Shown in pieces: positions 7,407-34,547 of a stretch of 38,332 nucleotides of DNA. Below the pieces are notes generated by a model. It did not search any database, was not told the origin of the DNA, and was given only the letters and a program-made list of their open reading frames with translations. Origin of the DNA: a virus; the IMG/VR virus record IMGVR_UViG_3300007712_000088, positions 1 through 38,332 of that record; one strand, 5' to 3'. Position 1 is the stretch's first letter, and the number at the start of each line of letters is the position of its first letter. Both the position numbers and the translations under genes were made by a program.

Positions 7407-7993
7407 TTGTAACCGATGTGGACGGAGTCTTGGTCAACTGGGAAGGACATTTTCATGACTATATGAAAAGCCATGGACACGAACGCGCGTATGATGGCAG
7501 TGGCAGCTATTGGAAGGAAGCCGAATATAGTCACCTAAGTCAAGATGAAGCCCGCAAGATGGTTTATCACTTTAATACCAGCGCGTGGATGATTGACGTT
7601 CCGCCCTTACGTGATGCTCGTTCTGGTGTCGCGCGACTCGTGGACGCTGGTTATCGATTCATTGCTGTTACTGCGATGGGATTGGATCCCTATGCAAAAC
7701 AGATCAGAGAAATCAATCTCGAGCGCCTGTTTGGCTACGATACCTTTGAAGATGTGATTGTAACTGATATGTATGATCCTGACAGCAAAGTGGAACCACT
7801 ACGTCAATTGAGTGGCAAGGGGCGTTTGCTTTGGGTTGAAGATAAACCCAGCAATGCTGAAATTGGACTCAACCTTGGCTACGAGACATTTCTTATGGAT
7901 CATCTTTACAATCAGGAGTATGACGAAGGCGGCGACATTCAAAGAGTGAACAGTTGGGCGGACATCTGCAGGGTAGTTTTGCCTACTTCTTAA
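7394..7993 (+). CDS. HAD-superfamily phosphatase
   Basis: A 199-residue haloacid-dehalogenase-fold hydrolase. Motif I is TDVDGVLVNWE (nucleophile D8, general acid D10), motif II is T93 in AVTAMG, K132 is a possible motif III lysine, and motif IV is WVEDKPSN (E149/D150). These act on phosphorylated small molecules or 5'-nucleotides; the substrate is not evident. The start is TTG at 7394, supported by GGAGG about eight bases upstream. The stop codon overlaps the PhoH stop on the other strand (TTAA at 7990-7993). A phage 5'-nucleotidase or polynucleotide 3'-phosphatase role is possible. Confidence 0.8.
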   Translation: MEKLIVTDVDGVLVNWEGHFHDYMKSHGHERAYDGSGSYWKEAEYSHLSQDEARKMVYHFNTSAWMIDVPPLRDARSGVARLVDAGYRFIAVTAMGLDPYAKQIREINLERLFGYDTFEDVIVTDMYDPDSKVEPLRQLSGKGRLLWVEDKPSNAEIGLNLGYETFLMDHLYNQEYDEGGDIQRVNSWADICRVVLPTS

Positions 7994-8727
7994 CTTTCGT
8001 CTCCGTAGATCTTGAGAACCTCCTTTACAGCGGGATGGCGTTCAACGTCATGTTGATCAAATTCAACTGCGCCGATACGTTGTGAATAGTCTGCTAAACG
8101 TGAAATGATGTCTCTCAAACCATTTGATTCGAATCCCCTATCGTGCTGAGTTACATCGCCTGTTACAACGACGCGACTATTGTCACCAATACGTGTCAAC
8201 AACATTTTCATTTGATTGGGTGTTGCGTTTTGCATTTCGTCAGCTAGGATCCATGCGTTTTTGAACGTGCGGCCTCGCATATATGCAAGCGGCGCGATTT
8301 CGATAATATTTTCAGAGATTAATGCTTCAATTTCTTTAGGTGAATAATACTCTTCAAACACATCAAAGATTGGCCTTGTCCAAGGGGCCATCTTTTCTAC
8401 TAGAGTTCCTGGTAAAAACCCGTGCTGCTCATCCACACTAACAGCCGGACGAGTAACAACAATTTTTTCGCACTCGCCTGCCTTTAGAGCACGAATAGCT
8501 GCCAATACAGCGATCATGGTCTTACCTGTTCCGGCAGGTCCGGTGGCGAAAACAATATCTTTACCGGGATCATCAAGAAGCGCGAGGTAATCTTCTTGGG
8601 CTAGGTTTTTGGGTAGAATTTTTACCCTGTTCTCTCGCTTTTTGAACCTACTAAAATCAATCACTTGGTGATTGTTCTGTTGTTCTAAATATTGAGCCTT
8701 ACGAGCTCTTCTTCTGCTTTTTGACAC
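7990..8727 (-). CDS. phoH: PhoH-like ATPase
   Basis: A 245-residue P-loop ATPase of the PhoH family. Walker A GPAGTGKT at 63-70 is followed by VTRPAVSVDE (91-100) and the Walker-B-type WILADEMQN at 159-167, then the conserved TGDVTQHDRG. The basic N-terminus (KSRRRARK) is typical of phage versions. The start is GTG (8727), with GGGAG about nine bases upstream on the minus strand. PhoH is frequent in marine phages; its role in infection (RNA metabolism or phosphate response) is unsettled. It is the main leftward gene and has its own late-type promoter. Confidence 0.93.
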   Translation of the reverse strand: MSKSRRRARKAQYLEQQNNHQVIDFSRFKKRENRVKILPKNLAQEDYLALLDDPGKDIVFATGPAGTGKTMIAVLAAIRALKAGECEKIVVTRPAVSVDEQHGFLPGTLVEKMAPWTRPIFDVFEEYYSPKEIEALISENIIEIAPLAYMRGRTFKNAWILADEMQNATPNQMKMLLTRIGDNSRVVVTGDVTQHDRGFESNGLRDIISRLADYSQRIGAVEFDQHDVERHPAVKEVLKIYGDES

Positions 8728-8780
8728 TTTTTATGTCTCCCTTGTTGGTTGGTGCAGCGCCAATCCAACTGTTCACGTAA

Positions 8781-8788
8781 ATATTTAG
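8781..8788 (-). promoter_or_regulatory. Late-promoter box for phoH (CTAAATAT on minus)
   Basis: Reading leftward, the sequence is CTAAATAT, matching the T4-type late -10 element TATAAATA as it appears elsewhere in this window (CTAAATA, CATAAATA). It lies about 54 bases upstream of the phoH GTG and is back to back with a rightward box at 8835-8842. Confidence 0.5.
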
Positions 8789-8834
8789 CGAGCACTAGCA
8801 TGAATCGCGCAGATATGCGATCTTTTAGAAACGG

Positions 8835-8842
8835 CATAAATA
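8835..8842 (+). promoter_or_regulatory. Late promoter box CATAAATA
   Basis: CATAAATA lies 22 bases before the ATG at 8865, inside the 137-base divergent intergenic region. It matches the T4 late -10 octamer in seven of eight positions. It probably drives the 8865-14772 block. Confidence 0.65.
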
Positions 8843-8864
8843 GTGTAAAGCACAGGAATACCGC

Positions 8865-9413
8865 ATGATTGATATCAACGAAATTGCAGCAACTATTAGT
8901 GGCGTCAAAAAGAATCGCAATACTCTAGACGTCTTGCTTGAGTTCGAAGGCATTTTGGACGATCTGCACGTTTACGCATATGAAAATTGGATCAAGGGTG
9001 AAGTAATCAAAGGACCTATTATTTCAAAATATTGGGTTGAAGTTTACCTCATGTATCCTTATAAGCAAATGCCAAACCCAGAAGCAGCATTGCGTCTTAT
9101 CAAGCACGGCTGTTATGTATTTTATCAGAAAGATACGTTGACAGATAATGTAAAGATTAAACGCCCAAACGATCTCATTATGGATCCAGAACGAAACAAA
9201 CACGTTCCCAAAACCAAGAAGATTGATGTATGGGTTATCAAAATTGTTATGCCACGTCACTTGCTCACTGATTACAACGTCAAGAAAATCAGCGCATTGA
9301 CTGGTGAAGTAGATCTGGACGATGTAGTAGATGCATATGACCAGGGTCTAGATGTAGATAGAAATGCACGTAGTGAAGATGAAGAAGAACCGAATCAAGA
9401 ACAGGATATCTGA
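8865..9413 (+). CDS. Conserved T4-like phage protein, late class (182 aa)
   Basis: The first gene after a late promoter, with ATG at 8865 (weak ribosome-binding site). It is a soluble alpha/beta protein with an N-terminal half of strands (DLHVYAYENWIKGEVIKGP) and a very acidic tail ([11 protein letters not shown]) after VDLDDVVDAYDQGLD. The pattern looks familiar from marine T4-like genomes but I cannot assign a T4 gene number. Late expression suggests virion assembly or packaging. Overlaps the next gene. Confidence 0.65.
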   Translation: MIDINEIAATISGVKKNRNTLDVLLEFEGILDDLHVYAYENWIKGEVIKGPIISKYWVEVYLMYPYKQMPNPEAALRLIKHGCYVFYQKDTLTDNVKIKRPNDLIMDPERNKHVPKTKKIDVWVIKIVMPRHLLTDYNVKKISALTGEVDLDDVVDAYDQGLDVDRNARSEDEEEPNQEQDI

Positions 9414-9924
9414 GGGGTTGAAATACGAAGACCTTAAAGGTCTAGTATCCAGCACAATCACTATAGATCTACACAAACCAAAAATTGGTGATGTGGAGGA
9501 TACAGTTGTGGTTGCATTTGATGTCACATATGAAGAACCCGCAAAAGATCTCGGCGCGTTCATTGAAACTGGCAATCTAGAACATCTTGACGTGGAAGTT
9601 GCCGGATCACCAGACGCAGATGGAACCTGGAGGGTGTTCGTTGAGTTTCAAAGAGACCACAATCTCTTCGAAAAAATCGAAGAAATGCTGCATAGTGTAG
9701 ACCAAATCACCAGCCGCGATGATGGCGAATGGAAATACCGGGCTTATAACGTCAAAAATAAAAGAAAGTTTACTGAACAAAATTTCCGCAATGACGTTGT
9801 AGATAGTCGTTATGAATACCGCAAAAAGTATTTGAGTAACGACGAAACAGATGACGAGCCAGTGGACGAACTAGAAGAGAGTTGGCTCCGTCGCATTAGA
9901 GAGATGCAAAAGCTGAATGCCTAA
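9379..9924 (+). CDS. Conserved T4-like phage protein, late class (181 aa)
   Basis: The frame is open from ATG 9364; ATG 9379 ([13 protein letters not shown]) gives a basic start and is preferred only weakly, since neither has a strong ribosome-binding site. The first 30 residues are basic; the centre holds beta-like segments ([19 protein letters not shown] and [20 protein letters not shown]); the C-terminus is acidic and then helical. It overlaps the upstream gene by 35 bases and the IF-1 gene by eight. Function unknown; probably a late structural or assembly protein by context. Confidence 0.6.
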
Positions 9925-10138
9925 AGAAGAAACGTTAACCATGCAGGGCGAGGTGGTCGAATGCTTGCCCAATGCAACATTTCGAATTCGACTTGAAAAC
10001 AATCACGAAATACTTGGCATAATCAGCGGCAAAATACGTAAGTTCAACATCAATATCCTACTAGGTGACAAAGTTGATGTAGAAATTACCCCATATGACC
10101 TCTCAAAAGGTCGCATTACATATAGGCATAAAAAATGA
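9917..10138 (+). CDS. infA: Translation initiation factor IF-1
   Basis: A 73-residue single OB-fold protein that aligns without gaps to bacterial IF-1 over its whole length: [20 protein letters not shown] (9-28), ISGKIRK (36-42), [20 protein letters not shown] (48-67). IF-1 binds the 30S A-site and works with IF-2 and IF-3 in start-site selection. The RNA-binding residues K39, R41 and R66 of the E. coli numbering are kept, while the NYIRIL segment (43-48) is FNINIL, replacing Y44 and R46 by Asn. It is embedded between late-class genes with overlapping starts and stops, so it is a genuine phage gene and not host contamination. Confidence 0.93.
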
Positions 10139-10653
10139 TTAACTTTCTAAGTTTTCTATCACCAAGATTCTTAAAAGGACTGGCTATTGTTGCTGTTATA
10201 GCAGCAATAGGAGGTGCTATTTACTTTCACTTCCAATCGATTCAGGCTAAAGATGATCGTATAGCTGAGCTTGTAAGTGAGAAAGCAACACTGGAAGCAA
10301 ACGTTGCTCAGTTAGAAGAAGGCATTACCAAACAACAAGAAACTATTGCATCTTTGCAAGAAGATTTTCGTCTGCAGGCCGAGATACTAAACAGCACAAA
10401 CGAACAATTTCAAGATGCACGAGACAACGTAACACGACTAAGAGATCGTCTAGGAAGTCATGAGCTAGGATTTCTAGCTTATAATCGACCAGGGCTTGTT
10501 GAAAATATCATCAATGATGCTACAGACGAAGTTGGTCGTTGTTTTGAGATCGCAGCGGGGGCACCACTAACGGAAGAAGAGCTCAATGCAACACTTCCCA
10601 GTCAGATCAATTCGGAATGTCCAGATTTAGCCAATCCGAATTACGAGGAGTGA
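10135..10653 (+). CDS. Rz-like inner-membrane spanin
   Basis: A 172-residue protein with a short cytoplasmic N-terminus, one transmembrane helix at about 13-32, and a long periplasmic coiled coil at about 38-108 ([20 protein letters not shown] and following). A conserved-looking C-terminal domain follows, with C136 in [17 protein letters not shown] and C162 in SECPDLANP. This layout is that of i-spanins, which disrupt the outer membrane together with an outer-membrane lipoprotein. The very next gene encodes a lipoprotein, supporting the pair. It starts in an ATGA overlap with IF-1. Confidence 0.72.
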
Positions 10654-22023: not shown

Positions 22024-23433
22024 ATGACACAACCAATTACAAAATCACAACTTGATGCACTCGAAGCAGCAGCCGATAAGGTTTTTGGCAAGCTGGGTAT
22101 TGACATTGAATTTACGCGTCACTTCCTAGACCGTGTTAACGATGAACGCAACCGCAAACAGATTACAATACGTGAACTGGGCGAGTTGTTCGCTAAAGAA
22201 TATCGTCGTTGGGGTCGTAAGATCTCTGCTATGCCCGTTAACTCACAAGCTGTTATGAAAGATCTCAGCAGCGAACTCAACATACCATTTGTATTGAATA
22301 AGGATGGCAAGGAGAAAGACCTTGTCGCAAAAACAGTCATGCGCAAAAAAGATTTTCGAACACCAAACCCAGAGCTTCCAGTAGAAAGCGTGAACGAAGC
22401 AGGTCGTCATCGTGACCATGTTCCAAGAAAAGGATCTAACAGTGAAGTCACAATCAAAGGTATAGAGATTCCTCTAAAGAAAGAAAGTTGGGGTGATTGG
22501 ACTGTGCCATATGGCAAGTTTAAGAACATCGGAAATTTCAAGAGCAAGCGTGAATTGATTGCTGCTCTGAAACAGAAAGCAGATCAGGTACAGGAAGAAA
22601 AGCATGGCGCTAAAAAGGGCACACAAGTTCGAGGACGTGATTCTACACCCAAGATGACCAAGCCTAGCCACAAAGGCCAGCAGCCACACCCAATGCGTGG
22701 TAAGCTGGTTGGTGAGGGCGACAAGCAAACTTGGGACGTGGTTGCTAACAGAACAGGAAAGATCCTAGCTACGTTTGATGTCGAAGCTCTTGCTCCTCGA
22801 CACTACTGGGTCGAAAAAGGATGGGCAACAGTCAAACCCAACCATGGCGGACGTAAGGGCGAAATTTATAACGAATCAATGGACGAGCGGCCGCTGGACG
22901 TAAAAACACCAACAGCAGAAGAAATCGCGCAAATGCATGGTGTTGATTTGGAAATGATAGAACAGCAACTCCAGATGGGACTCAAAGTAGAAATGGAACA
23001 TACAGATGATCCATTTGCTGCTATGGAAATTGCTCTCGACCATCTAAAAGAAATGCCAGATTATTATACGCACCTGGCAGGAATGGAATCAGAATATACA
23101 CAAGAAATGGTTCGTGCATCATGGCAAGCATATCAAGTCAATGAAAAATTATCAGATCCACGCGAAGCCATACTTAACATGGCACTCAAATTCCTAGATC
23201 GCAAAGTCAAAAGTAAACGTGATCAATCAAGTCTGGCTGGATACGCATATGACGTTGCTAAAGAAATAAATCTCAATCAAATTGGAGTTAACGCAAAAGA
23301 ATTGGCGCAATTGTATCGTGATTGGCAAGGGGATAATGTTGTCGCTGAAGGATGGATGGAAGAAAATCTATACTACCTAGACGAGGTAACGGAAACAAAA
23401 AAGAAAACCAAAAGTATCAAGAAGAAAAAATAA
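22024..23433 (+). CDS. Modular virion polyprotein with DUF5661 (469 aa)
   Basis: Residues about 1-115 form a domain starting IEFTRHFLDRVNDERNRKQI and ending VAKTVMRKKDF, which I recall in several marine T4-like structural proteins. The motif VNE-AG follows at 123-127 (cut expected after E125). Residues about 140-290 are basic, and 299-360 are a DUF5661-type domain (MHGVDLEMIEQQLQMG, DHLKEMPDYYTHL). Then come VNE-K and a helical domain, VAE-G and a Lys-rich tail. The linker motifs match the T4 prohead-protease pattern, so this is probably processed in the capsid. TAATG overlap with the next giant gene. Confidence 0.65.
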   Translation: MTQPITKSQLDALEAAADKVFGKLGIDIEFTRHFLDRVNDERNRKQITIRELGELFAKEYRRWGRKISAMPVNSQAVMKDLSSELNIPFVLNKDGKEKDLVAKTVMRKKDFRTPNPELPVESVNEAGRHRDHVPRKGSNSEVTIKGIEIPLKKESWGDWTVPYGKFKNIGNFKSKRELIAALKQKADQVQEEKHGAKKGTQVRGRDSTPKMTKPSHKGQQPHPMRGKLVGEGDKQTWDVVANRTGKILATFDVEALAPRHYWVEKGWATVKPNHGGRKGEIYNESMDERPLDVKTPTAEEIAQMHGVDLEMIEQQLQMGLKVEMEHTDDPFAAMEIALDHLKEMPDYYTHLAGMESEYTQEMVRASWQAYQVNEKLSDPREAILNMALKFLDRKVKSKRDQSSLAGYAYDVAKEINLNQIGVNAKELAQLYRDWQGDNVVAEGWMEENLYYLDEVTETKKKTKSIKKKK

Positions 23434-26400
23434 TGCAGATCAACGAGCTTTTTGATAAACCATATTCATTCAAATGGATTGAACAGAGTGACGAAGCTTG
23501 GAAGGCTGAAGCACAGTTGAGTGGTGATGATTACCTCGTCATCAATTTTAACACTACAGATTTCAATTTAACTGAGTGGGAAATCAACTTCCAGCGTGGA
23601 GATGATTACGACTATAAAGCATCAGGCGCAGGCGATGAGTTTCGTGTTTTTGCCACTGTGGTAGCGGCAATCAAAGAATGGTTCAAAAAACAAAGCCCCA
23701 AGCCCCGTGAAATATTTTTCAGCGGCGACAAACAAGACACACCAAACGCAGAAAGCCGTGTTCGTCTTTATGATCGTTTTGCTAGACAGTTTGCACAAGC
23801 AACTGGTTATCGCATGGAACGCAAAGAACTAAAAATGAGTGTTAGTTGGAATTTTGTTCGTCCCAAGAAAAAGAAGGCTGTCAAAGAAGTTGAAATTGAC
23901 AACGCCAAGGGTCGTGGGCAAGTGCCTATGAACCAAGATGTTGATTATTTTGGTTTGCGTGTTAAGATGCGCCCGAGCACATTTCTCAAACTTGCTGCGC
24001 CGCTTGCCAGTGATGCAAGCGATGAAATGAAAGATTACATCCGCAAAGGCGGTGCAATTGGAGCGCCGTTCCTTATCATTCGTGTTGAAGAAGGTGAAGA
24101 GCCATACGTTAGGAGTCATGAAGGACGCAATCGTATGAAGGCTATACTAGCTGTTGAAGGTGATGATCCAGTTGAAACCCATTTGTTTTTCCGCGGTGAT
24201 GTTAGCAAGGCAAGGCAATTAACACCAGAGCTTATTGCTCGTCTCAAAAAAGGACTTAAACAGCAAGTGACTGGTCAACATGTAAGAGGACCACTGTGGG
24301 AGGAAGCAGCAGGCGTTGGTCGTATCACCAAACAGAATACAACTGTGGATGTTAAACCTGGTGAGACACAACGTCAAGCTGCCAAGTTCGGAAACAAGGT
24401 CGACAAAAACAATCGCCCGCCAGAGCTACATAAGAAAGCCCGCAAGAACTCTAATGCACACATATTGACCAATCTGGGATTGGCTGAACATGTTCAACTC
24501 AACGAACTATTTGACAAGTCATATAATTGGACGTGGAAATATAATAAAGGGAGAAGTCGGAAAGCTGTTTTTGATACAGACGCAGGCGACACAGTAAATG
24601 CTGAGTTTGGTGATCTCGGCGGAGATGCAGTATACTTTGATTTTGGACGTAACGGCTCACATTATGTGACAGGAGAGGGTGACGCATTTAAAATCTTTGC
24701 CACAGTGATGAAGATACTTGCTGATTATATCCGAGACGAAAAGCCAGGCAAACTGGTGTTTGGTGCTGAGAAAAATCCTCAGTCTGGTGCAAAAATGATG
24801 TCACGGATAAATCTTTATACCCGTATGGTCAAGAAGTTTGCTGATGCCGCTGGATACGATTTTGATATCGTAGACGCAGGCTTTCAAACCAAGTATAAGC
24901 TATTTCGCAAGGATCTAAAAAACATATCCGAAAGCAAAGAACCCGCATACCAAATGCAACTAGTGCGTGATGGTGATGAAGATGCCTTAATCGTAACCAG
25001 CAACAAGAGTTCAAAATGGGTTGAAGTTCGTGGAAAATCAAATTATGAAACAGATGGATATGATCCTCAGGACCCACTACACCAAATTTTGGATAAACTA
25101 GATCCTGCTACGGTTGCAGCATTGATGGCTGGTGATACAAAATTCCTCAATCCAAATAACTCACGCACCACTCCATCAATCAAAACGGCACAGCACGTGA
25201 TGACAAACGAGACTGAAGGCACCAAAAAGATTTATGGCTACAAGGCCATGAACTACAACCCTGAATCAGGCGAAATTACAAGTGGTGCAGATAAAAGAAC
25301 CACAAAAGGCGTAAAGCTACGTAAAGGCATGACGTTGCGTATGCCAGGACGCGGAATTTTTATGTCAACCAACCGTGACTATGTTGAGCAATATTACAGT
25401 GGACACAACGACTATGAAGCACTGATCAAATTTGAATTTGATCCGGATGAAATAACAAGTGGTAACTTGACTGACCGTGAAAATGAGTTTACTGTTCCCA
25501 GTGCTCGTGTAGTTGGTTTTAAAGTTCTTGATCACTTAAACGAAGCAGTAATCAAGAAGCCGCACCCGAAAGACACGCTGGGTGTCAAGCGAGCAGATAT
25601 GCCACAAGTGCACAAGGATCATTACCCAGAGTTCATCCAGTATCTCAAAGATCACGGTGCTAGTATGCGCCATCGCCGCGTTCATGCACGTGACCTCAAG
25701 CCAGTGCAAAGTGAGTTTAGCGATGCTGGTGTTGAAAAGATGATGACCAACAAGGACGAGAAAAAGGGCACCACACGGGAAAAGCCGCTTATTGTGAGTA
25801 GTGACAATTACATTATTGATGGTCATCATCGTTGGCTTGCTAGCTACAACCTTGATGAGGACATTCCTGTTATGCAATTCAGTTTGCCCATCAAGCGTCT
25901 GTTCCAATTAACCAAGGACTTTAAGCACACCACATACAAAGACATTCACGAAGGTAATTTAAATGAAGCACTTAAAGATGCCTATGAATATGACATTTAT
26001 CGCGTTGGATCCAGTATCATAAAGGCAAAATTCGAAACACAAGGCGGTCATGAAGTGAAGGTAGTCCTAGGAATGGTAGTAGATGATTACTATGCTGCAA
26101 GCCTCCTGCATTATGCTGATTTTGACATACGTGATATAGGTCTCAATTCCAATGATATTTGGGAATTCTTTTTTACGCGCGATGGCGACGTTGATCTCAC
26201 AAATCAAGGCGATCAGTGGCGCGTCATGGCAACAGTGATTGCTATCTTTAGAGATTTTGTATCTCGTAAAAAGCCACAAGTCATTGCATTTAGTGCAAGC
26301 AAGCAAGAAACTGGTGGCAAGGGAAGACTGCCATTATACAGAAGAATGGCGAGAGCATTTGCACAAGAAAGTGGATTTCAAGTTAGAGAATTTGATCTCA

Positions 26401-26684
26401 TGGATGAGACTTATTTCATGCTATTTGCACCCAGCATTAAGTTAGGCGAAAACATTTCAATTACAGGCACGGAGCGTCACAAGGAGGAACGAAAGAAACA
26501 ACTCGTTCCTGGTTCTGACGCTTGGTTCAGTCACTGGTTCTCAAGACCATATCTCAAGCGTGAGCAAGTAGAACAACTCAAGGCGGAAGCTGTCAAACAC
26601 ATCAAAGGAGTTCGAAATGAAAAAGCGACTAACAGAAGAAGATCTCTTAGCGACAGAAGGACCAATGAACGCAGTGGCAATTGA
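23433..26684 (+). CDS. Giant modular polyprotein: three Alt-N-like repeats, ART-like and ParB-like domains
   Basis: The start is ATG 23433 in the TAATG overlap; 1083 residues. Module A (1-145) starts MQINELFDKPYSF and has VFATVVAAIKEWFKK. A basic domain with SHEGRNRMKAIL is at about 150-290. Module B (356-497) starts LNELFDKSYNW; after ISE-S at E500 comes a linker. An ADP-ribosyltransferase-like domain is at 598-702 (K604 in YGYKAMN, S645-T-N in FMSTN, E683-N-E685 in RENEFTVP). LNE-A at E704 precedes a ParB-type domain at 708-835 (DGHHR at 796-800). LNE-A at E845 precedes module C (847-997). T4 Alt, as I recall, begins MELITELFDE. Likely packaged and injected. Confidence 0.65.
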   Translation: MQINELFDKPYSFKWIEQSDEAWKAEAQLSGDDYLVINFNTTDFNLTEWEINFQRGDDYDYKASGAGDEFRVFATVVAAIKEWFKKQSPKPREIFFSGDKQDTPNAESRVRLYDRFARQFAQATGYRMERKELKMSVSWNFVRPKKKKAVKEVEIDNAKGRGQVPMNQDVDYFGLRVKMRPSTFLKLAAPLASDASDEMKDYIRKGGAIGAPFLIIRVEEGEEPYVRSHEGRNRMKAILAVEGDDPVETHLFFRGDVSKARQLTPELIARLKKGLKQQVTGQHVRGPLWEEAAGVGRITKQNTTVDVKPGETQRQAAKFGNKVDKNNRPPELHKKARKNSNAHILTNLGLAEHVQLNELFDKSYNWTWKYNKGRSRKAVFDTDAGDTVNAEFGDLGGDAVYFDFGRNGSHYVTGEGDAFKIFATVMKILADYIRDEKPGKLVFGAEKNPQSGAKMMSRINLYTRMVKKFADAAGYDFDIVDAGFQTKYKLFRKDLKNISESKEPAYQMQLVRDGDEDALIVTSNKSSKWVEVRGKSNYETDGYDPQDPLHQILDKLDPATVAALMAGDTKFLNPNNSRTTPSIKTAQHVMTNETEGTKKIYGYKAMNYNPESGEITSGADKRTTKGVKLRKGMTLRMPGRGIFMSTNRDYVEQYYSGHNDYEALIKFEFDPDEITSGNLTDRENEFTVPSARVVGFKVLDHLNEAVIKKPHPKDTLGVKRADMPQVHKDHYPEFIQYLKDHGASMRHRRVHARDLKPVQSEFSDAGVEKMMTNKDEKKGTTREKPLIVSSDNYIIDGHHRWLASYNLDEDIPVMQFSLPIKRLFQLTKDFKHTTYKDIHEGNLNEALKDAYEYDIYRVGSSIIKAKFETQGGHEVKVVLGMVVDDYYAASLLHYADFDIRDIGLNSNDIWEFFFTRDGDVDLTNQGDQWRVMATVIAIFRDFVSRKKPQVIAFSASKQETGGKGRLPLYRRMARAFAQESGFQVREFDLMDETYFMLFAPSIKLGENISITGTERHKEERKKQLVPGSDAWFSHWFSRPYLKREQVEQLKAEAVKHIKGVRNEKATNRRRSLSDRRTNERSGN

Positions 26685-26844
26685 TGATGCGCGAGCATAT
26701 CTGGGCTTAGAAGATCAAGCACGTCTTACTCCTATAGAAGAACGCCAACTAAGAGCAAAAAAGAAAAAGATTGTCACTTCTAGTAAGAAAATGGAGCGAC
26801 GTATCGATCGAGAACTCACCCGTCACGCAGATCGCCTGGATTGA
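26617..26844 (+). CDS. Small basic helical protein (75 aa)
   Basis: ATG at 26617 overlaps the end of the giant gene by 68 bases, with AAGGAG about eight bases upstream. The protein is charged and helical: it starts KKRLTEEDLLATEG (LATE-G resembles the protease-type motif) and ends with very basic KKKKIVTSSKKMERRIDREL. Late by context; might be a packaged internal protein. Unrecognised. Confidence 0.55.
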   Translation: MKKRLTEEDLLATEGPMNAVAIDDARAYLGLEDQARLTPIEERQLRAKKKKIVTSSKKMERRIDRELTRHADRLD

Positions 26845-26850
26845 TAAATA
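26843..26850 (+). promoter_or_regulatory. Late promoter box GATAAATA
   Basis: GATAAATA ends five bases before ATG 26856. With T4 late geometry (-13 to -6) the first transcribed base would be the A of that ATG, a leaderless late mRNA. The box overlaps the TGA of the previous gene. Confidence 0.6.
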
Positions 26851-26855
26851 CCTGT

Positions 26856-27029
26856 ATGCGTATTACAGATATCATCAATGAAACCACCGCCGGAGCCGTT
26901 GCAGGAGTTGCAACTGGGCTAGGTGGTGGTGACCCTGCCGCTAGCATTTACAAAAACAACAAAAAGAAAAAGAAGCGTAACAACTCAAAGATGGTCCGAC
27001 GCCCACAGATGGAGAAGAAGGATGACTAA
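26856..27029 (+). CDS. Small internal-protein-like peptide (57 aa)
   Basis: Starts at ATG 26856 (a longer TTG start overlaps the promoter box). It begins MRITDIINETTAGAVAG, resembling the N-terminal peptides of neighbouring genes (MKIRDLKES, MLIEDIIREG), with INE-T as a possible protease site, then a Gly/Ala-rich stretch and a very basic Lys/Arg tail. No ribosome-binding site. Overlaps the next gene by eight bases and contributes its GGAGAAGAAGG. Probably a small packaged DNA-binding peptide. Confidence 0.5.
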   Translation: MRITDIINETTAGAVAGVATGLGGGDPAASIYKNNKKKKKRNNSKMVRRPQMEKKDD

Positions 27030-29154
27030 GTCACCACGTTATAATAAAGATGCTGTTGATAAGGAGCTCAAGAAAACGGGTGCTGGCAAAAAAGCTAGCA
27101 AACTTACACACAAGCTGCTAAAAGGACGTCAACAAGCAGACGAATCAAAAGTTACAGAAGCTGACATTGTAGACTTCAGCTCATTTGCTGGAATGTATCA
27201 CGGTGGCGCTCATGCAGTTTTTCAACACCCAAGAACTGGCGAGTTTCACATGATTCAAGCAACAGGCAATAAGCCTCGAAAATATTTCCTAGATGGCAAA
27301 GAAATTTCATGGGATGAGCTCAAGCAGGCTGTGGGTAGAACACAGCTACACCCAAAGCAAGGCTTCAAACCAGACTATGAAGAGTCAGTAAACGAAGCAA
27401 GTGAAATGAAGTCATTTAGTGTTAGATACAAGACCAAGAGCGGCAAAACATCAACATGCACTATCCGGGCGCGTGACAAAAAAGAAGCAGAAGCAAAATG
27501 TCGTAGTAAACCAAACTATAACGGTGACGCAAGTGCAACACTCAATGAGGACCGCGCAAGTGATTACGGCGTAAGTGATGCGCAACGCAATCCTAGCATG
27601 GGTCGTCCCGCTACTAGCCGCAGCCACCGTAAACCAACAGACCGTGAAATTGAAGACCGAGATCGATCAGCCGGAATGGCAATGGATGCCATGACCGCTG
27701 CCAAGCGTAAAAAAGAGCGGGCAATGTTTGGTGAAGATGGTGCAGGTTTTAGCAAAGGTGACACAGTGATTGCTCTAAGAGGACCTCACAAAGGCGATCG
27801 TCACGAAGTGATTCATGATTTTGGTGATGGCACATACAACGTTCGCCCACTAACACGTCGCGTCAAATATCGTTTGGGAGCAGCAAAAGCAAGTGCTGAG
27901 GACCTCAAGCCTGTTACAGAAGGCGCCAAGCCAAGCGCAACTCTTGGTGAGGCAGAAGTGGGTGATCGTGTTAAGTATCGCAACATCAAAAGCAAGCGCA
28001 ACAAGACAGGCACAGTGCGCCGAGTAGACACAAAGAACAGCCAAAAGCGTTACGAGCTTGATGGCGGCAAGATGGTTTATGATTCTGACTTAGAGGAATC
28101 AGGAGATTGGAGCGGAGGTGTAATGCCGTTTCGATATGCAGTAATCAATGACAATAACGACATTGAACTTTATAATACAAGAACAGACAGATTAATTAAG
28201 ACTGTTCCGATGCCAGACTATCGATCTGCAGAACGACGCTTAGAAAGGGCACTATTTGACCCAAGTCTAGATGAGCATGTCCATGGACAAATTTGGTATA
28301 TGAATATGATTCCAGGTGAACGTTTTAGCGATGTTGATACTGAACTAGAAGAAGCAAACACCTCATATGACAGAGATCTTGACGATAACCAGCCAATTAT
28401 TGTAAAAGGTGTAAAGGGTGCTAGCAGCAAGTCTTTCCGTAAAAAGTTTAAAAATATGGATGCATATGGCAAGTGGATTGACAGTGATGCCGCTGATGAT
28501 TATGAAGTTCATCAGGTTATGAACGAGTCACACAAGATAACTGAAGGCGTTCTAGACGACATGGACGACGATGGATTTATGGCCAAGCGTCAACTATACG
28601 ACATTGCCAAGTATGCTGTTGAACTACATCGCATGATTCAGGACACTGATAACCTCGAGCCTTGGATACAGGCAAAAATCACAAAGGCACAAGACTATAT
28701 TGACACAGTCAAGCACTACATGGAATATCAAGGTGTATCAGATGCAGAGGCCATGGCAGACTTCAGCAACATGGACGACCTTGCCCCAGCAGTGGATGCA
28801 ATAGGCCCTGAAATGCCTCAAGAAGAAGTAATGGAATACGGTGATGAAGATGGATCATATGTATATCCTGAAGACGTTCTGCGTTGGGCCGTTACCCGTG
28901 GTGTGATCAGCGACGAACAATTTGACAACCCAAGCACTGAACTTCACGACGCTGCGGCAGATGCAGCAGACTGGATAGGGCAAGTTGATGAGATCGGCAG
29001 CTCAGATGTTTCAATTTGGTTGCGTGATTTTGTTGATACTGCAAAAGGTTATGGTGCTGAACTAGATGGACCAAATGCAATTCGTTATATGAATGAATCA
29101 AAGGCTGCTCGCATCTACGAAAAAATGATCAAGCAATTAAAAGGACGCAAGTAA
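27022..29154 (+). CDS. Modular virion polyprotein with KOW/SH3-like units (710 aa)
   Basis: ATG 27022 has GGAG at 27011-27014; the longer open frame lacks such support. The basic N-terminal 42 residues are followed by VTE-A (E45). Later modules are separated by VNE-A, LNE-D, FGE-D, VTE-G, LGE-A, LEE-S, LEE-A, MNE-S, ITE-G and MNE-S. Two units look like SH3/KOW barrels (FSKGDTVIALRGPHKGDRH and VGDRVKYRNIKSKRNKTG). The C-terminal third is acidic and helical. No enzyme motif. TAATG links it to the next gene. Proposed: a string of small capsid proteins released by the prohead protease. Confidence 0.62.
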   Translation: MTKSPRYNKDAVDKELKKTGAGKKASKLTHKLLKGRQQADESKVTEADIVDFSSFAGMYHGGAHAVFQHPRTGEFHMIQATGNKPRKYFLDGKEISWDELKQAVGRTQLHPKQGFKPDYEESVNEASEMKSFSVRYKTKSGKTSTCTIRARDKKEAEAKCRSKPNYNGDASATLNEDRASDYGVSDAQRNPSMGRPATSRSHRKPTDREIEDRDRSAGMAMDAMTAAKRKKERAMFGEDGAGFSKGDTVIALRGPHKGDRHEVIHDFGDGTYNVRPLTRRVKYRLGAAKASAEDLKPVTEGAKPSATLGEAEVGDRVKYRNIKSKRNKTGTVRRVDTKNSQKRYELDGGKMVYDSDLEESGDWSGGVMPFRYAVINDNNDIELYNTRTDRLIKTVPMPDYRSAERRLERALFDPSLDEHVHGQIWYMNMIPGERFSDVDTELEEANTSYDRDLDDNQPIIVKGVKGASSKSFRKKFKNMDAYGKWIDSDAADDYEVHQVMNESHKITEGVLDDMDDDGFMAKRQLYDIAKYAVELHRMIQDTDNLEPWIQAKITKAQDYIDTVKHYMEYQGVSDAEAMADFSNMDDLAPAVDAIGPEMPQEEVMEYGDEDGSYVYPEDVLRWAVTRGVISDEQFDNPSTELHDAAADAADWIGQVDEIGSSDVSIWLRDFVDTAKGYGAELDGPNAIRYMNESKAARIYEKMIKQLKGRK

Positions 29155-31622
29155 TGAAAATTCGTGACCTAAAGGAATCACTTCCTCCACACCTCGCACG
29201 CCATGTTGACAGTCGTGGTGACAAGGTTGATGGTGACTGGGAAGATGGTGACTGGAAACCCAAGAAGCGTCGTGTATTGCACAAGCGCATGGGCACCATC
29301 CAAAAGAGCAAGGACGTCACACCCAAAGGTTACGGACCAGATGAATCACTTGAAGAGGGTCGCCTAGACGATTTCATCAAAGTCAGCAAGCGTGAATTTT
29401 ATGATCTAGAAAAGCAAGGCGCAATATCAAACCCACAGACAGGTGGCTTATACATGAATAACAAGCTTGTGGGTTATAGAGATAATGCGGGTGACGGCGA
29501 ACAAAACTTTTATGACTACTTCCTAGATCCTGATTTTGTTGAAGAACTGGTAGCAGAGGGATTTTGGAGTGATGGCAAATACAACACTACAGGAACAACA
29601 CATTATCTTTTAGTGCCACATGATGGTCGACCAGACTATTCCAAGTGGTCAGTAATGCCATATCAAGATCGGCCAGGATCAAATCCACTTCATCTAAAAG
29701 CAATGATTGATGAATACGCAAAGCGTCTTGGTTGGGATCGTTCAGATGTCGTAGCATCATGGAGAGGTGACTTGGACCAAGAGCTTGCTTCAGCAACTGA
29801 AAAGCTCGCTAGTGACAAGAAATTGATTCCAAGTTATGAAATGGATCTACAAAAAACTGTCAAGGACTTGAGCCAAGCAAAAGAAGTCATGAAAAGTGGC
29901 GAGGAAGTCAAGCCAGCTAATACTGAAGCACGTGATCCACAAAGCGTTATCAAGCAATTCCTAGACAAAAAGAAATCACGTCAGGCACGTTCAGATGAAC
30001 TAGCCAAGAATCCACGCAAAGTTAACCAACTCAAAAGCGACAAAGAACTGCAAGAAGAGCCAACTGATAGCGACTATGCTATTGGCATGGCGCAGGCCAA
30101 AAAGAGCACAGGTGACCGTAAGCCACTTCGTAAGTCAACAATCAAAAAAGGTCACAAGATTGCTCGTGCAGTTGCAAAAGAAGAACAGGATTTGACAGAA
30201 TACAAACCAGGCGTCACCGTGCTAACACGTGAGATTAGCTTTAACGACTACGAAGGGCACAATGGCGAACAAGACTACCAAACAGTCAAGCGTATCCGTT
30301 GGCCATATGGCATTGACGTTAGCTTCAACGACCGCGCTCGCACAGTTCGTTTCAAAACTGCAAAGATGAAGACAGTTGCTAAGATTCTTGACAAGCACAT
30401 TGATTTTGGCGCAGTGAGTGCAGGTGAAGTTCTTGACTTGCCACCAGAGTTGATGATGGATTCTACTCCAACCAAAAAAGTAACACCAGGTCGTAAAGCT
30501 GCTCGTTTACTTCAAGCTAACGGATGGGACGTTCCGTTCGTAGACAAAGGAAAGAATGGTTACAGCCTAAAGATTTTTGGTTACAAATTCAGACCAAGCA
30601 ATCCAGAACATCAAAAACAAGCTGAAGCTAGAATCCTTGATGAAAAGAGACAACTTGAAAGTCTGCTAGCTAAGGACTTTCCTAACGCACAAGTAAAAGT
30701 TGTTCGTTCATGGATTGGTCGAACTGAAAGTGAACGTCGCAGTAAAACAATTGGCGAATACAATATCAGAATTTTAGTGCCTTTTGAAACTGCACCCATT
30801 GGTGATTCGCCAGAGTTGATGGGTGAAAGTGATCGCAAATCAGAGCTCAAGAAAAAGTTTCGGCAAGATCGCGATGACGAAGAAGTGAGAACTGGTAAAG
30901 CTAACAAGGTTGGTAATATGACAGTTTATGATCGCAACCCACCACAAGATTCTTTGGCTGGCGGCATCAAGTCACGCATGAAGAACATGAAAGAAGCAAT
31001 GCCAACAACCGGAACAAAGATAACAATCGCCGTAAATAACAAACCAGTCCGGGAGCTCAAGTTACCACGCGACGCTCGTGCTCACCATGTCGTTCAAGAG
31101 TTGCGAGGATTGAAATTAGGCCTAGGCGAATATGAAATGCAAGATGCTGCTCGCAAGTTGGCAGCTGGAAAAGTCTTCAAGAAAGACAACATATCAATGA
31201 CACCTGCCGCAACTCATCCACGTGAAATGGAGAGTGTTGAAGAAGATGACAGTTTAAATGAAAATCCATGGAACCAGGCAGGGCAAAAGAAACCAACCGG
31301 CGGAACATTGCCTCCGCCAAAACGAGGTCAGGTTCCATCGCACAATAAGATGTGGCAAGTAGGCGATAAAGTTATTCCTCATACTGGTCCGCTTGCTGGT
31401 AAGCCACATATAGTTGTATCGTCACGTAAAACAAGCGTCAACATTGTTCCTCGTCGAGGATCGTATCCTGACCCATATGGAATGAGTGTTAGAGCAAAAC
31501 ACAGTTGGCTCACTCCAGCAGAAGTCAAGGAAGATGATGATCCATGCTGGGACGGATACGAACAGATCGGTATGAAAAAGAAGGGCGGCAAGAAAGTCCC
31601 CAATTGTGTTCCAAAGAAGTAA
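29154..31622 (+). CDS. Modular virion polyprotein with CWDGYEQIGMKKKGG tail (822 aa)
   Basis: Begins MKIRDLKES, a likely N-terminal targeting peptide with LKE-S. Modules are separated by LEE-G, VAE-G, LTE-Y, MGE-S, MKE-A and LNE-N motifs. Parts are strongly basic (KKSTGDRKPLRKSTIKKGHK). The C-terminus PCWDGYEQIGMKKKGG with a following KKVPNCVP is an ending I remember from marine T4-like virion proteins; its two cysteines may pair. No catalytic motifs. Late by position. Role inferred: internal head or injected polyprotein. Confidence 0.62.
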   Translation: MKIRDLKESLPPHLARHVDSRGDKVDGDWEDGDWKPKKRRVLHKRMGTIQKSKDVTPKGYGPDESLEEGRLDDFIKVSKREFYDLEKQGAISNPQTGGLYMNNKLVGYRDNAGDGEQNFYDYFLDPDFVEELVAEGFWSDGKYNTTGTTHYLLVPHDGRPDYSKWSVMPYQDRPGSNPLHLKAMIDEYAKRLGWDRSDVVASWRGDLDQELASATEKLASDKKLIPSYEMDLQKTVKDLSQAKEVMKSGEEVKPANTEARDPQSVIKQFLDKKKSRQARSDELAKNPRKVNQLKSDKELQEEPTDSDYAIGMAQAKKSTGDRKPLRKSTIKKGHKIARAVAKEEQDLTEYKPGVTVLTREISFNDYEGHNGEQDYQTVKRIRWPYGIDVSFNDRARTVRFKTAKMKTVAKILDKHIDFGAVSAGEVLDLPPELMMDSTPTKKVTPGRKAARLLQANGWDVPFVDKGKNGYSLKIFGYKFRPSNPEHQKQAEARILDEKRQLESLLAKDFPNAQVKVVRSWIGRTESERRSKTIGEYNIRILVPFETAPIGDSPELMGESDRKSELKKKFRQDRDDEEVRTGKANKVGNMTVYDRNPPQDSLAGGIKSRMKNMKEAMPTTGTKITIAVNNKPVRELKLPRDARAHHVVQELRGLKLGLGEYEMQDAARKLAAGKVFKKDNISMTPAATHPREMESVEEDDSLNENPWNQAGQKKPTGGTLPPPKRGQVPSHNKMWQVGDKVIPHTGPLAGKPHIVVSSRKTSVNIVPRRGSYPDPYGMSVRAKHSWLTPAEVKEDDDPCWDGYEQIGMKKKGGKKVPNCVPKK

Positions 31623-31624
31623 CT

Positions 31625-31948
31625 ATGAGATTGATTGAGCTAAAAGAAAAGATCCGAAATACCCGTATACCACGTGCCATCTATCATGAAATCATGGCAC
31701 AGGAAGTGGATACGATTGGACCGGATAGCCCGCAAGAAAAGCAGATGCTTGCGGACCAAATGATGCGAGCTCAACAAAGCGGAACAATCTATAAGGTTCC
31801 GCTCACAACAGAAACTCAAACTTATCTGCTCAAGAAATCAATGCCCAGTATGATAGATATTGCTCGGGACAACATGAACGGACGCCTTGTAAATAGCTTG
31901 CAAAAGTTTCAGGCAAAACTACATGCCAAACTAGTAGGAGCAAAATAA
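31625..31948 (+). CDS. Hypothetical helical protein with N-terminal MRLIELKEK (107 aa)
   Basis: ATG 31625 lies two bases after the preceding stop; the longer upstream frame overlaps that gene and is rejected. The start MRLIELKEKIRN resembles the N-terminal peptides of its neighbours. The remainder is helical and amphipathic (EKQMLADQMMRAQQSG; RLVNSLQKFQAKLHAKL). Likely another packaged protein or scaffold-like element. TAATG overlap with the next gene. Confidence 0.6.
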   Translation: MRLIELKEKIRNTRIPRAIYHEIMAQEVDTIGPDSPQEKQMLADQMMRAQQSGTIYKVPLTTETQTYLLKKSMPSMIDIARDNMNGRLVNSLQKFQAKLHAKLVGAK

Positions 31949-32568
31949 TGCTCATTGAAGATATTATCCGTGAAGGCCCAGAAGGCATGAAAAAGCTAGC
32001 CCTCTATCCAGGGCGTTTCCAGCCTCCCCACATTGGACACATGAAGGCTTGGCAATGGATGAATCAAAAATTTGGCGAGGCTTTTGTAGTCACAAGCGAT
32101 AAGGTTGATCCGCCACGCAGTCCTTTTAACTTTAACGACAAGAAAAGACTGCATATGTTTGCTGGCATCCCAGCCAACCGCATCGTTCAAGTAAAAAATC
32201 CATATCAAGCTGGAGAAATCGTAGAAAAATATGATCCAAACAAGACTATTCTTGTTTTTGGAGTAAGCAAAAAGGACATGGATGAAGATCCTCGGTTTTC
32301 ATTCAAACCCAAGAAGGACGGTAGCCCGGGCTACCTTCAACCATATAAAGAAAACCAAAACAACCTACAACCCATGAGCAAGCATGGTTATATCGCAGTT
32401 GTGCCTACTTTCAATTTTACAGTGTTGGGCGAGCCTATGAAAAGTGCAACTGAATTTCGCGCTAACTTTGCCTCAGCAGACGAAAGCACTCAAGCCAAGA
32501 TGATCAAAGATCTCTATGGCAAATATGATGAAGGTATACATCAACTGTTGAGAGAGAAAATTGTCTAG
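31948..32568 (+). CDS. NMN adenylyltransferase-like nucleotidyltransferase with N-terminal targeting-like peptide
   Basis: A 206-residue protein of the HIGH-type nucleotidyltransferase superfamily. GRFQPPHIGHMKAW at 22-35 carries the HxGH motif (H28, H31), and SATEFR at 166-171 matches the ISSTxxR motif of the nicotinamide-mononucleotide adenylyltransferase group. The expected reaction is ATP plus NMN to NAD plus pyrophosphate; other nucleotidyl acceptors are possible. The first ten residues, MLIEDIIREG, resemble the capsid-targeting-like ends of neighbouring polyproteins with IRE-G as a possible cut site. That extension is unusual for a metabolic enzyme. Confidence 0.8.
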   Translation: MLIEDIIREGPEGMKKLALYPGRFQPPHIGHMKAWQWMNQKFGEAFVVTSDKVDPPRSPFNFNDKKRLHMFAGIPANRIVQVKNPYQAGEIVEKYDPNKTILVFGVSKKDMDEDPRFSFKPKKDGSPGYLQPYKENQNNLQPMSKHGYIAVVPTFNFTVLGEPMKSATEFRANFASADESTQAKMIKDLYGKYDEGIHQLLREKIV

Positions 32569-33248: not shown

Positions 33249-34046
33249 ATGGCAGTCATCAAAAACCATCGCCTTGAAGGCGCGCCTTATGTTGCGTCAC
33301 CCAACAAAGGCGGTCGTATCACACCAAGATTCATCGTACAACATTATACAGCAGGCTATACAGCACAATCTGCAATCAACACTCTTACTCGACGCGGAAG
33401 CGGAGTGAGTGCTCACGTCACAGTGGACCTAGATGGCACAATCACACAACATGTTCCTTTCAATGTCAAAGCTTGGCATGCTGGGCCAAGTAGTCACATG
33501 GGCTATACGGGCCTGAACAGTCATAGCATTGGTATTGAAATTGTTAACATTGGCTGGCTTCGCCCTCTTGGAAATGGCCACTATCAAGATGCATACGGAA
33601 ATTCAAGAGATGATTCAGATTTTCCACATGGATTGGTAGCAGCACCAAACACAAGGGTGGGGTCAGGAACATTTTACTGGCCACGCTATACACCCGAGCA
33701 ATTACATGCTGTGGATGAATTAACAGAAGCACTGGTACAGAAATACAATATCATCGACATCGTATCACATGAAGAAATCGATACCAGGGGATGGAAAACC
33801 GATCCAGGTCCTGCGTTTCCAATGAAACTAGTCAAGCGTCATCTCGAAGCCGAGCGAGGTCTGGATAGCGAGCGATATGTAGTCACCGCAAGTTCACTCA
33901 ACGTCCGTGGTGGCCCAGGAACGCGATTTGCAACCCTGGGCGGTCTCTCTAATGGACAAGAAGTTGAAGTTCAAGAACACTCAGGTGTTTGGGCACGTAT
34001 TGACGATAACGGATGGGTCCACAGCGGATATCTGCGTAGAGTTTGA
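33249..34046 (+). CDS. Endolysin: N-acetylmuramoyl-L-alanine amidase with SH3 domain
   Basis: A 265-residue protein. Residues about 24-200 form an Amidase_2 domain: IVQHYTAG (H32 zinc ligand), SIGIEIVN (E97 region), SHEEIDTRGWKTDPGP (H174 and D185 as further zinc ligands, K183). Residues about 208-265 form a bacterial SH3 domain (SSLNVRGGPGTRFATLG and WARIDDNGWVHSGYL) that should bind peptidoglycan. It cleaves the amide bond between muramic acid and L-alanine. No signal peptide, so release needs a holin, probably the 15550 gene. Late promoter and strong ribosome-binding site. Confidence 0.93.
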   Translation: MAVIKNHRLEGAPYVASPNKGGRITPRFIVQHYTAGYTAQSAINTLTRRGSGVSAHVTVDLDGTITQHVPFNVKAWHAGPSSHMGYTGLNSHSIGIEIVNIGWLRPLGNGHYQDAYGNSRDDSDFPHGLVAAPNTRVGSGTFYWPRYTPEQLHAVDELTEALVQKYNIIDIVSHEEIDTRGWKTDPGPAFPMKLVKRHLEAERGLDSERYVVTASSLNVRGGPGTRFATLGGLSNGQEVEVQEHSGVWARIDDNGWVHSGYLRRV

Positions 34047-34076: not shown

Positions 34077-34547
34077 ATGCCACTTCTAGAAGCGCCAACC
34101 TTTGATCAATTAGAGCACCGCAAAGAGATACTTTACGGCAATATTCACCGTGAAGAATGGAGATGGAATGGTGTGCTACACAGTGTAGACGATCATCCCA
34201 GCGTCAAAATCGATGGTGCTCAAGAGTGGCAGTGGCATTCGCACGGTATGAGACATCGTGAAGGTGATCGCCCTGCCTGGATCAAAGACTTTGGAACCAT
34301 CCAAATCTATTATCATTTAAACGTGATTCACCGCGCCCGCGGCGGCCCAGCCATGATTAGCGACACAAAACAAAAATGGTATAGCTATGGCCGAATCCAC
34401 CGTGCAGATGGCCCTGCGATCATTCATAATGACGGTCATGTCGAATGGTGGTGGAAGGGATACGAATATGCTACAATGGATGAATGGGCAGATCACGGCA
34501 AGGTTGACCCCCAACTTTTTGTGCTTCTCAAGCTAGAATGGGGTTGA
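34077..34547 (+). CDS. HR-x-GPA repeat protein (156 aa)
   Basis: A protein with about five imperfect repeats of the form W-x-x-x-G-x-x-HR-x-x-GPA-x-I: IHREEWRWNGVLHS, EWQWHSHGMRHREGDRPAWI, VIHRARGGPAMI, KWYSYGRIHRADGPAII, VEWWWKGYEY. Such MORN-like repeats are common in phage and mimivirus proteins and likely form a beta-meander binding surface. No function known. It begins with an ATG directly after the promoter without ribosome-binding site. Its TGA lies in the -35 box of the next promoter. Confidence 0.65.
   Translation: MPLLEAPTFDQLEHRKEILYGNIHREEWRWNGVLHSVDDHPSVKIDGAQEWQWHSHGMRHREGDRPAWIKDFGTIQIYYHLNVIHRARGGPAMISDTKQKWYSYGRIHRADGPAIIHNDGHVEWWWKGYEYATMDEWADHGKVDPQLFVLLKLEWG

Follow-up and report, generated by a model that had tools for sequence, protein, structure and literature searches.

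Hydrophobic-x-glutamate sites at the module joints of a mosaic gene block point to probable prohead-cut polyproteins in a large T4-like phage

The DNA analysed here (the window) is a 38-kb virus fragment of 38,332 nucleotides (IMG/VR record IMGVR_UViG_3300007712_000088), and the capsid region of the phage lies outside it. The source is a large T4-like phage: its clamp loader shares 54% identity with the one in Pseudomonas phage PA5oct and 87% with the one on an uncultivated contig of 142 kb. The window carries four adjacent open reading frames (ORFs) of 469, 1083, 710 and 822 aa, arranged head to tail with short start/stop overlaps or gaps. A preliminary description had read these genes as strings of modules joined at hydrophobic-x-E motifs, encoding polyproteins that are cut inside the prohead into many injected effectors. 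The genes, the module strings and the listed motifs were found as written. The motifs stand at module joints and are kept through swaps of the cargo between them, and we suggest that the block probably encodes capsid-packaged precursors cut by an S77 prohead protease, with modules that would be delivered along with the DNA.

All genes of the block lie on the plus strand. The 469-aa protein (22024..23433) consists of a conserved N-terminal module, a variable cargo and a conserved DUF5661 module (E = 2e-16; three-phage alignment). One putative cut site, VNE125/A (22396..22398; the slash marks the cut), is the exact end of the N-terminal module and corresponds to VVKE/A and VTE/D in relatives; another, YNE284/S (22873..22875), marks the start of the DUF5661 module in the alignment of relatives. 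The 1083-aa protein (23433..26684) starts at an ATG within a mechanical 1110-aa ORF, an ATG that is conserved in the uncultivated relative L019. It contains three GNAT-like (DUF6934) modules (E = 4e-16, 3 stretches), a ParB-like module supported by PHROG and tblastn matches, and others. Its short leader-like N-terminus, MQINE/LFDK (23433..23447), can be likened to the region of the T4 Alt cut at ITE-6 (PMC5694885). A short module, GVGRITKQNTT...NLGLAE352 (24318..24488), is N-terminal in L053 and L066, where it follows the leaders MRIRDITE/GVGR and MRWTQFNE/GVGR. The second GNAT-like module (24489..24917) has LNE358/L just before it. Further along are the putative site ISE500/S (24930..24932), whose module follows MNE/S in L112, and the ParB-like module (25551..25946), with LNE704/AV just before it and VKE/S and MNE/E at that place in relatives. 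The alignment places a double putative site, IHE840/G and LNE845/A, after the ParB-like module (25950..25967), in a region spanned by a low-confidence linker (residues 834-847) of the AlphaFold model. LGE1006/N (26448..26450) precedes an ISITGT module and is matched by IGE/N and YKE/N in relatives and by the leader MKINEIFE/N in L023. Thus E358, E500, E704 and E845 were correctly placed in the preliminary description, the site given as E351 is really E352, and E1006 is additional.

A 57-aa basic protein (26856..27029) begins with the leader MRITDIINE/T, which reads IISE/T, IITE/T and IITE/T in L002, L019 and L115. The 710-aa polyprotein (27022..29154) has nine [LIVM]xE[AGSN] sites, among them LGE310/A and LEE359/S, which enclose a cassette EVGDRVKYRNI...DLEE (27952..28098) that sits in the 822-type gene of L116, and ITE508/G (28543..28545) before a GVLDDMDDDGF module, with ITE, IKE and LTE/G in relatives. 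We considered, and dropped, a frameshift that would fuse the 57-aa leader gene with the 710-aa gene: the frame overlap is 107 nt in the window but 35-50 nt in L002 and L019, and L112 has none. The 822-aa polyprotein (29154..31622) has the leader MKIRDLKE/S and, at residues 308-346 and 789-821, modules common to cyanophage proteins. Its short CWDGYEQ.GMKKKGGKKVPNCVP module (window 31533-31619) has counterparts in cyanophages and also in a tailed virus of archaea (L013, Haloarcula virus HCTV-1 gene 27). Two smaller genes follow: a 107-aa protein (31625..31948) with the leader-like start MRLIELKE/K, and a 206-aa cytidylyltransferase/NMNAT-like protein (31948..32568; PF01467, E = 5e-9) with the leader MLIEDIIRE/G, which ends INE/G in L115 and LRE/T in G019. 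The short N-termini named in the preliminary description therefore exist, yet only MKIRDLKE belongs to a large gene: MRITDIINE starts the 57-aa gene, MRLIELKEK the 107-aa gene and MLIEDIIREG the 206-aa gene. Among the four large proteins a leader-like start was seen only on the 1083-aa (MQINE/L) and 822-aa proteins.

Site position is far stronger evidence than site number. We compared the window with two syntenic uncultivated relatives, L019 and L002, which keep the block (485, 1348, 418 aa and more in L019; 497, 663 and 310 aa in L002) with different contents; profile scans worked better for finding relatives than single-protein queries, which gave few. In alignments of the three phages, conserved modules alternate with unrelated, swapped cargo. 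At eight conserved/variable boundaries picked by eye from the alignments, a hydrophobic-x-E glutamate lay within 4 residues in 23 of 24 cases (8 boundaries in 3 sequences), against a base rate of 0.20. When each boundary was counted as one event, with the three sequences pooled, the probability that 7 or more of the 8 would do so by chance was 8e-5. An automatic boundary scan recovered most of the by-eye boundaries, mixed with dips inside domains. Orthologous joints read, for example, VNE/A, VKE/A and VTE/D; LNE/A, VKE/S and MNE/E; LGE/N, IGE/N and YKE/N; or ITE/G, ITE/G and IKE/G, so that P3 and P1 are conserved and P2 varies. The junction profile has L, V or I at P3, a free P2, and A, G, S or L at P1', P1 being E by selection.

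The same module can be followed as a free-standing protein and as part of a longer chain. A profile scan gathered 67 loci with a DUF6934 module. Where DUF6934 forms the start of a protein, it is preceded by a short T4-like leader with a hydrophobic-x-E in 23 of 24 cases (MKIEELLE/T, MRIAEIITE/S and MKTFNQLHE/A are examples). Where it is fused within a longer chain, the leader is gone and the hydrophobic-x-E stands directly before the module in 24 of 26 cases (NVQE/S, DVNE/A, QLTE/T, AVTE/A), two of these 26 (in L019 and L036), whose start codon was wrongly called upstream, being in reality starts of the leader type. Of the two DUF6934 search patterns, one included part of the motif; the resulting bias is limited, since many loci do not match that pattern. 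Other modules gave similar counts, from few independent lineages for some of them: the motif preceded the ParB-like module in 4/4 cases (1.1 expected), the ISITGT module in 8/9 (2.5 expected) and the GVLDDMD module in 13/13 (6.4 expected).

Modules have also moved between genes, and the moved cassettes are flanked by sites. Segments of the window's 710-aa gene are found in the 822-type gene instead in L116 and L115; the cassette that reads LGE/AEVGDRVKYRN...DLEE/S in the window reads TNE/AEVGDKVKYRN...DLEE/D in L116, with T at P3. On a 202.7-kb contig (G014), one 1862-aa ORF (L112:9971-15559) has modules of both the 469- and the 1083-type, separated by several GNAT-like repeats, and in L023 the last module of the 1083-aa gene and the first of the 469-aa gene are joined behind the leader MKINEIFE/N. 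Two modules are joined by LTE/A in ORF252 of Vibrio phage nt-1, where the joint reads VNLTE/AFDK. Such moved cassettes and fusions are what exchangeable units with processing ends would be expected to look like.

Motif counts agreed with the preliminary description, which had called for comparison with composition-matched expectation: the T4-type motif was about twofold over shuffled sequences in the module genes and flat in other window proteins. For [LIVMF]xE[AGS] we observed 22 sites vs 10.6 expected from shuffling (p = 0.0005) in the module genes and 34 vs 32.2 in the 51 other window genes; control motifs (D or K for E, shifted, reversed) were not enriched in the module genes. The strict form [LI]xE[AGS] gave 10 vs 4.8 (p = 0.02), and was mildly raised in the background window genes too (26 vs 16, p = 0.01), so that motif frequency by itself supports the reading only modestly. 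The excess lay mostly in the 710-aa gene (9 vs 2.4), and neither the 469- nor the 1083-aa gene was significant singly. A leader-like hydrophobic-x-E within the first 12 residues was present in 6/8 block genes vs 10/51 other window genes (p = 0.003). In the fully annotated cyanophage S-CREM2 the protease, scaffold, major capsid protein (MCP) and portal, pooled, had 21 motifs vs 8.4 expected, compared with 108 vs 101 in the rest; these head proteins are of the kinds cut by gp21 in T4. Internal sites of the leader- and linker-rich S-CREM2 proteins were not clearly enriched (26 vs 19.1, p = 0.08).

The protease sought by the preliminary description was absent from the window and present in relatives that carry such modules. 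An S77 protease was found in Vibrio phage nt-1, in four cyanomyoviruses (S-RIM8, S-CREM1, S-CREM2 and C48C1), in PA5oct, and in G003, G006, G019 and G020. Almost all large contigs without S77 also had no full-length MCP. On contig G004 (125 kb, the contig of L083), MCP-like matches were present and an S77 match absent; several leader-bearing DUF6934 paralogues lie close together on this contig. A single contig, G019, holds a 710-type polyprotein, an NMNAT-like protein with the leader MLIEDILRE/T, an S77 protease, and an MCP whose N-terminal arm ends ALTE/S. At the same place the MCPs of G020, G003 and PA5oct read YLSE/S, YLTE/A and FLVE/N. By their position, judged from T4 gp23, these MCP-arm motifs would be maturation sites.

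Precedents for packaging come from T4 and from virion proteomics. T4 Alt is cut at both ends, at ITE-6 and LTE-619 (PMC5694885). A 10-residue capsid-targeting sequence (CTS) suffices for packaging in T4, with residues 8 and 10 governing processing. Aspartate at P1 blocks the processing of the T4 CTS, and the CTS has been proposed as one route by which T4-like phages load various proteins (PMC9026906). In S-CREM2 virions a SAM hydrolase, an APH-like kinase, a cytidylyltransferase and a Cas9-labelled protein were detected (PMC10665884, Table 3). We found T4-like leaders on the first three (MKDFDSFLEE, MKRFDAFLTE and MKNFSSFLTE, respectively), and a leader-like RFASFMAE about 25 residues into the fourth. 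In that protein, gp12 (L086, record 7704-10313), the CTS-like FASFMAE/A suggests a mis-called start or a longer leader. In PA5oct, gp333 (L098, record 82921-83142), a 73-aa structural protein detected by mass spectrometry (MS) and adjoining the portal, starts MKINDIITE/G, nearly identical to the window leaders MRITDIINE/T and MLIEDIIRE/G.

The ParB-like module has a stand-alone Kuttervirus homologue, annotated as a structural protein and without a leader. It matches by annotation and gene order Sajous1 gp192, a ParB-domain protein seen with 11 spectra in virions (PMC10892097), and by size and order only the virion protein LIMEstone1 ORF102 (PMC3296691).

AlphaFold models had mean confidences of 42.7 and 44.3 (3 sequences each) and were mostly of low confidence, for which reason linker disorder is weak evidence. 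Usable regions were limited to the GNAT-like modules (two DUF6934 copies) and the ParB-like module. For the model with the mean of 42.7, Foldseek gave matches to GNAT acetyltransferases at a probability of 0.97-1.0 (E about 2e-3 at best) and to ParB-N at 0.95-0.99 (E 0.02-0.04). Relatives carry additional GNAT, NTase and weak PARP/ART-like modules. The chains combine several biochemically unrelated domains in a mosaic that is swapped among relatives, as in polyvalent proteins. The enzymatic activities are predictions, and an effector role is what we infer for the modules. Pfam and PHROGs scans gave no peptidase domain in the four large window proteins; an embedded metallopeptidase that does the processing is frequent in polyvalent proteins, though not universal. 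A 696-aa string of modules whose start is NTase-like (L041:1154-3241) also has a HELVHY-type zincin-like motif and may embed a metallopeptidase in the manner of classical polyvalent proteins.

Soon past the block, window 33249-34046 encodes an N-acetylmuramoyl-amidase-like protein with an SH3-like C-terminus (recognised by eye), and window 34077-34547 is one gene of tandem WYxxGxxHRxDGPA-type repeats, of which L002 has several paralogues (L002:15846-17360).

We propose the following mechanism. Each precursor would link small modules, most of them enzyme-like (GNAT-like, ParB-like and others), through hydrophobic-x-E sites. A short N-terminal leader, carried at minimum by the 57-aa basic protein, the NMNAT-like protein and the 822- and 1083-aa precursors, would draw its bearer into the core of the prohead. 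As the head matures, the phage's S77 (gp21-type) protease would cut after each exposed hydrophobic-x-E; the leader would be lost, and the modules would be released and enter the host along with the DNA. By such cutting a single gene probably delivers several distinct proteins packed in the head. The 469- and 710-aa proteins might enter the head by assembling together with a partner that has a leader. As a wider proposition, held a little less firmly, we favour the view that T4-supergroup phages use the head-maturation protease as a polyprotein protease on mosaic, prohead-loaded precursors of cassettes ending in hydrophobic-x-E, releasing many proteins for delivery to the host.

Several observations weigh against this proposal. 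No obvious N-terminal leader was seen on the 469- and 710-aa proteins, so capsid targeting of all four large proteins is not established. The preliminary reading is supported in part, by the sites at module joints, the change from leader to joint site on fusion, the S77 protease and MCP motif of relatives and the leader-bearing virion enzymes of S-CREM2. The NMNAT-like protein of L002 has no leader. No S77 protease was found in the window, G001, G002 or G013, all of them fragments, and G001 also had no MCP match; most likely such searches came up empty because these contigs miss the capsid region. A boundary test over all ORFs, using the ends of high-scoring segment pairs (HSPs), gave only a 1.8-3-fold enrichment of the motif, with other E-containing motifs, including shifted and reversed ones, at 1.5-3-fold; this test is noisy and partly confounded by module identity. 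A strict CTS regular expression matched 5/28 non-structural or unknown S-CREM2 virion proteins vs 4/167 undetected ones (p = 0.004), a modest difference obtained with an expression tuned after looking, and the authors of that proteome noted that carry-over in CsCl is possible (PMC10665884). Judged by the clamp loader, PA5oct is the closest phage in culture. Its syntenic place was examined for homologous genes and holds tail-fibre-like ones, and its virion MS therefore does not bear on the polyproteins. The strength of the case lies in comparison among relatives; packaging, cleavage, injection and effector function of the block we infer from sequence.

The main rival is that these are intact polyvalent proteins, packaged and injected whole as many polyvalent proteins are, with hydrophobic-x-E motifs that are leader remnants cut rarely or never. 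GNAT, ART and ParB domains do occur in known polyvalent proteins, some of which, the N4 virion RNA polymerase among them, are packaged uncut (PMC5512222). Stand-alone copies of the modules bear leaders ending in hydrophobic-x-E, so gene fusion would leave the motif behind, and the preference for sites at linkers could simply record past fusions of genes that had leaders. Against this, fused copies have lost the leader and kept P3 and P1 with P2 free, which suggests continuing selection, and sites also precede short non-enzymatic modules and are doubled at joints. We consider whole-protein packaging unlikely. Considerably less probable still is that the proteins are not packaged but are late cytosolic multidomain proteins, their leader-like starts and linker motifs being coincidental or serving another protease or complex. 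It is true that virion proteomics from this group of phages was not found, that the capsid genes are absent from the window, and that the 10 of 51 ordinary window genes counted above also have a hydrophobic-x-E near their start; but the leaders resemble the T4 CTS, orthologous leader sites keep P3 and P1, related modules occur in phages with virion-detected leader-bearing enzymes, and the Kuttervirus homologue of the ParB-like module appears in virions. Least probable is a composition effect, by which linkers rich in E and small residues would gather any E-containing motif at domain joints, as the shifted and reversed motifs at HSP ends might suggest, since K versions were flat or depleted there and D versions mostly so, the hand-aligned boundaries had the site within 4 residues in 23/24 cases with a hydrophobic P3, and the gene-wide controls showed no enrichment.

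Each of the three ingredients, CTS targeting, head proteolysis and polyvalent proteins, is already known. Packaging in the manner of T4 Alt and IPI-IPIII uses a short N-terminal leader ending in hydrophobic-x-E, here seen on the 1083-, 822-, 57-, 107- and 206-aa proteins and not on the 469- and 710-aa ones, and an S77 protease, here found in relatives, with Alt cut at both ends; each of these T4 precursors, however, yields one mature protein, whereas here up to about nine sites would release several modules from a chain. The polyvalent proteins of Iyer et al. 2017, which include P1 DarA/DdrB, are likewise mosaic strings of unrelated enzyme-like domains (GNAT, ParB-like, ART and NTase), for which injection and processing into units have been proposed (PMC5512222), but their proposed processor is an embedded zincin-like peptidase, whereas here the S77 protease of the head would do the cutting and its motif stands at the joints. 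Large head-packaged ejection proteins of phiKZ and SPN3US are cut after x-x-E by a gp21-related protease, often at several sites (PMC10052503), but in their case the repeated cutting breaks up an N-terminal propeptide (A-x-E in SPN3US), and release of several folded modules is not reported in that literature. Polyproteins of eukaryotic RNA viruses also yield several products from one precursor by one viral protease; they have no homology to the present system, which would use a structural head protease in the capsid compartment of a DNA phage. The open-access literature searched (preprints excluded) yielded no report of a polyvalent chain whose shuffled joints carry structural-protease sites.

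If the proposal is right, a phage structural protease doubles as a polyprotein processor, and its site doubles as a cassette boundary for shuffling. This would suggest how many small cargos enter the head with few leaders, and would supply a sequence rule predicting virion-delivered proteins. A direct test is possible in culturable phages such as Vibrio phage nt-1 and S-CREM2. Many of the unknown genes in T4-like jumbo phages and cyanophages would also be accounted for if the proposal holds.

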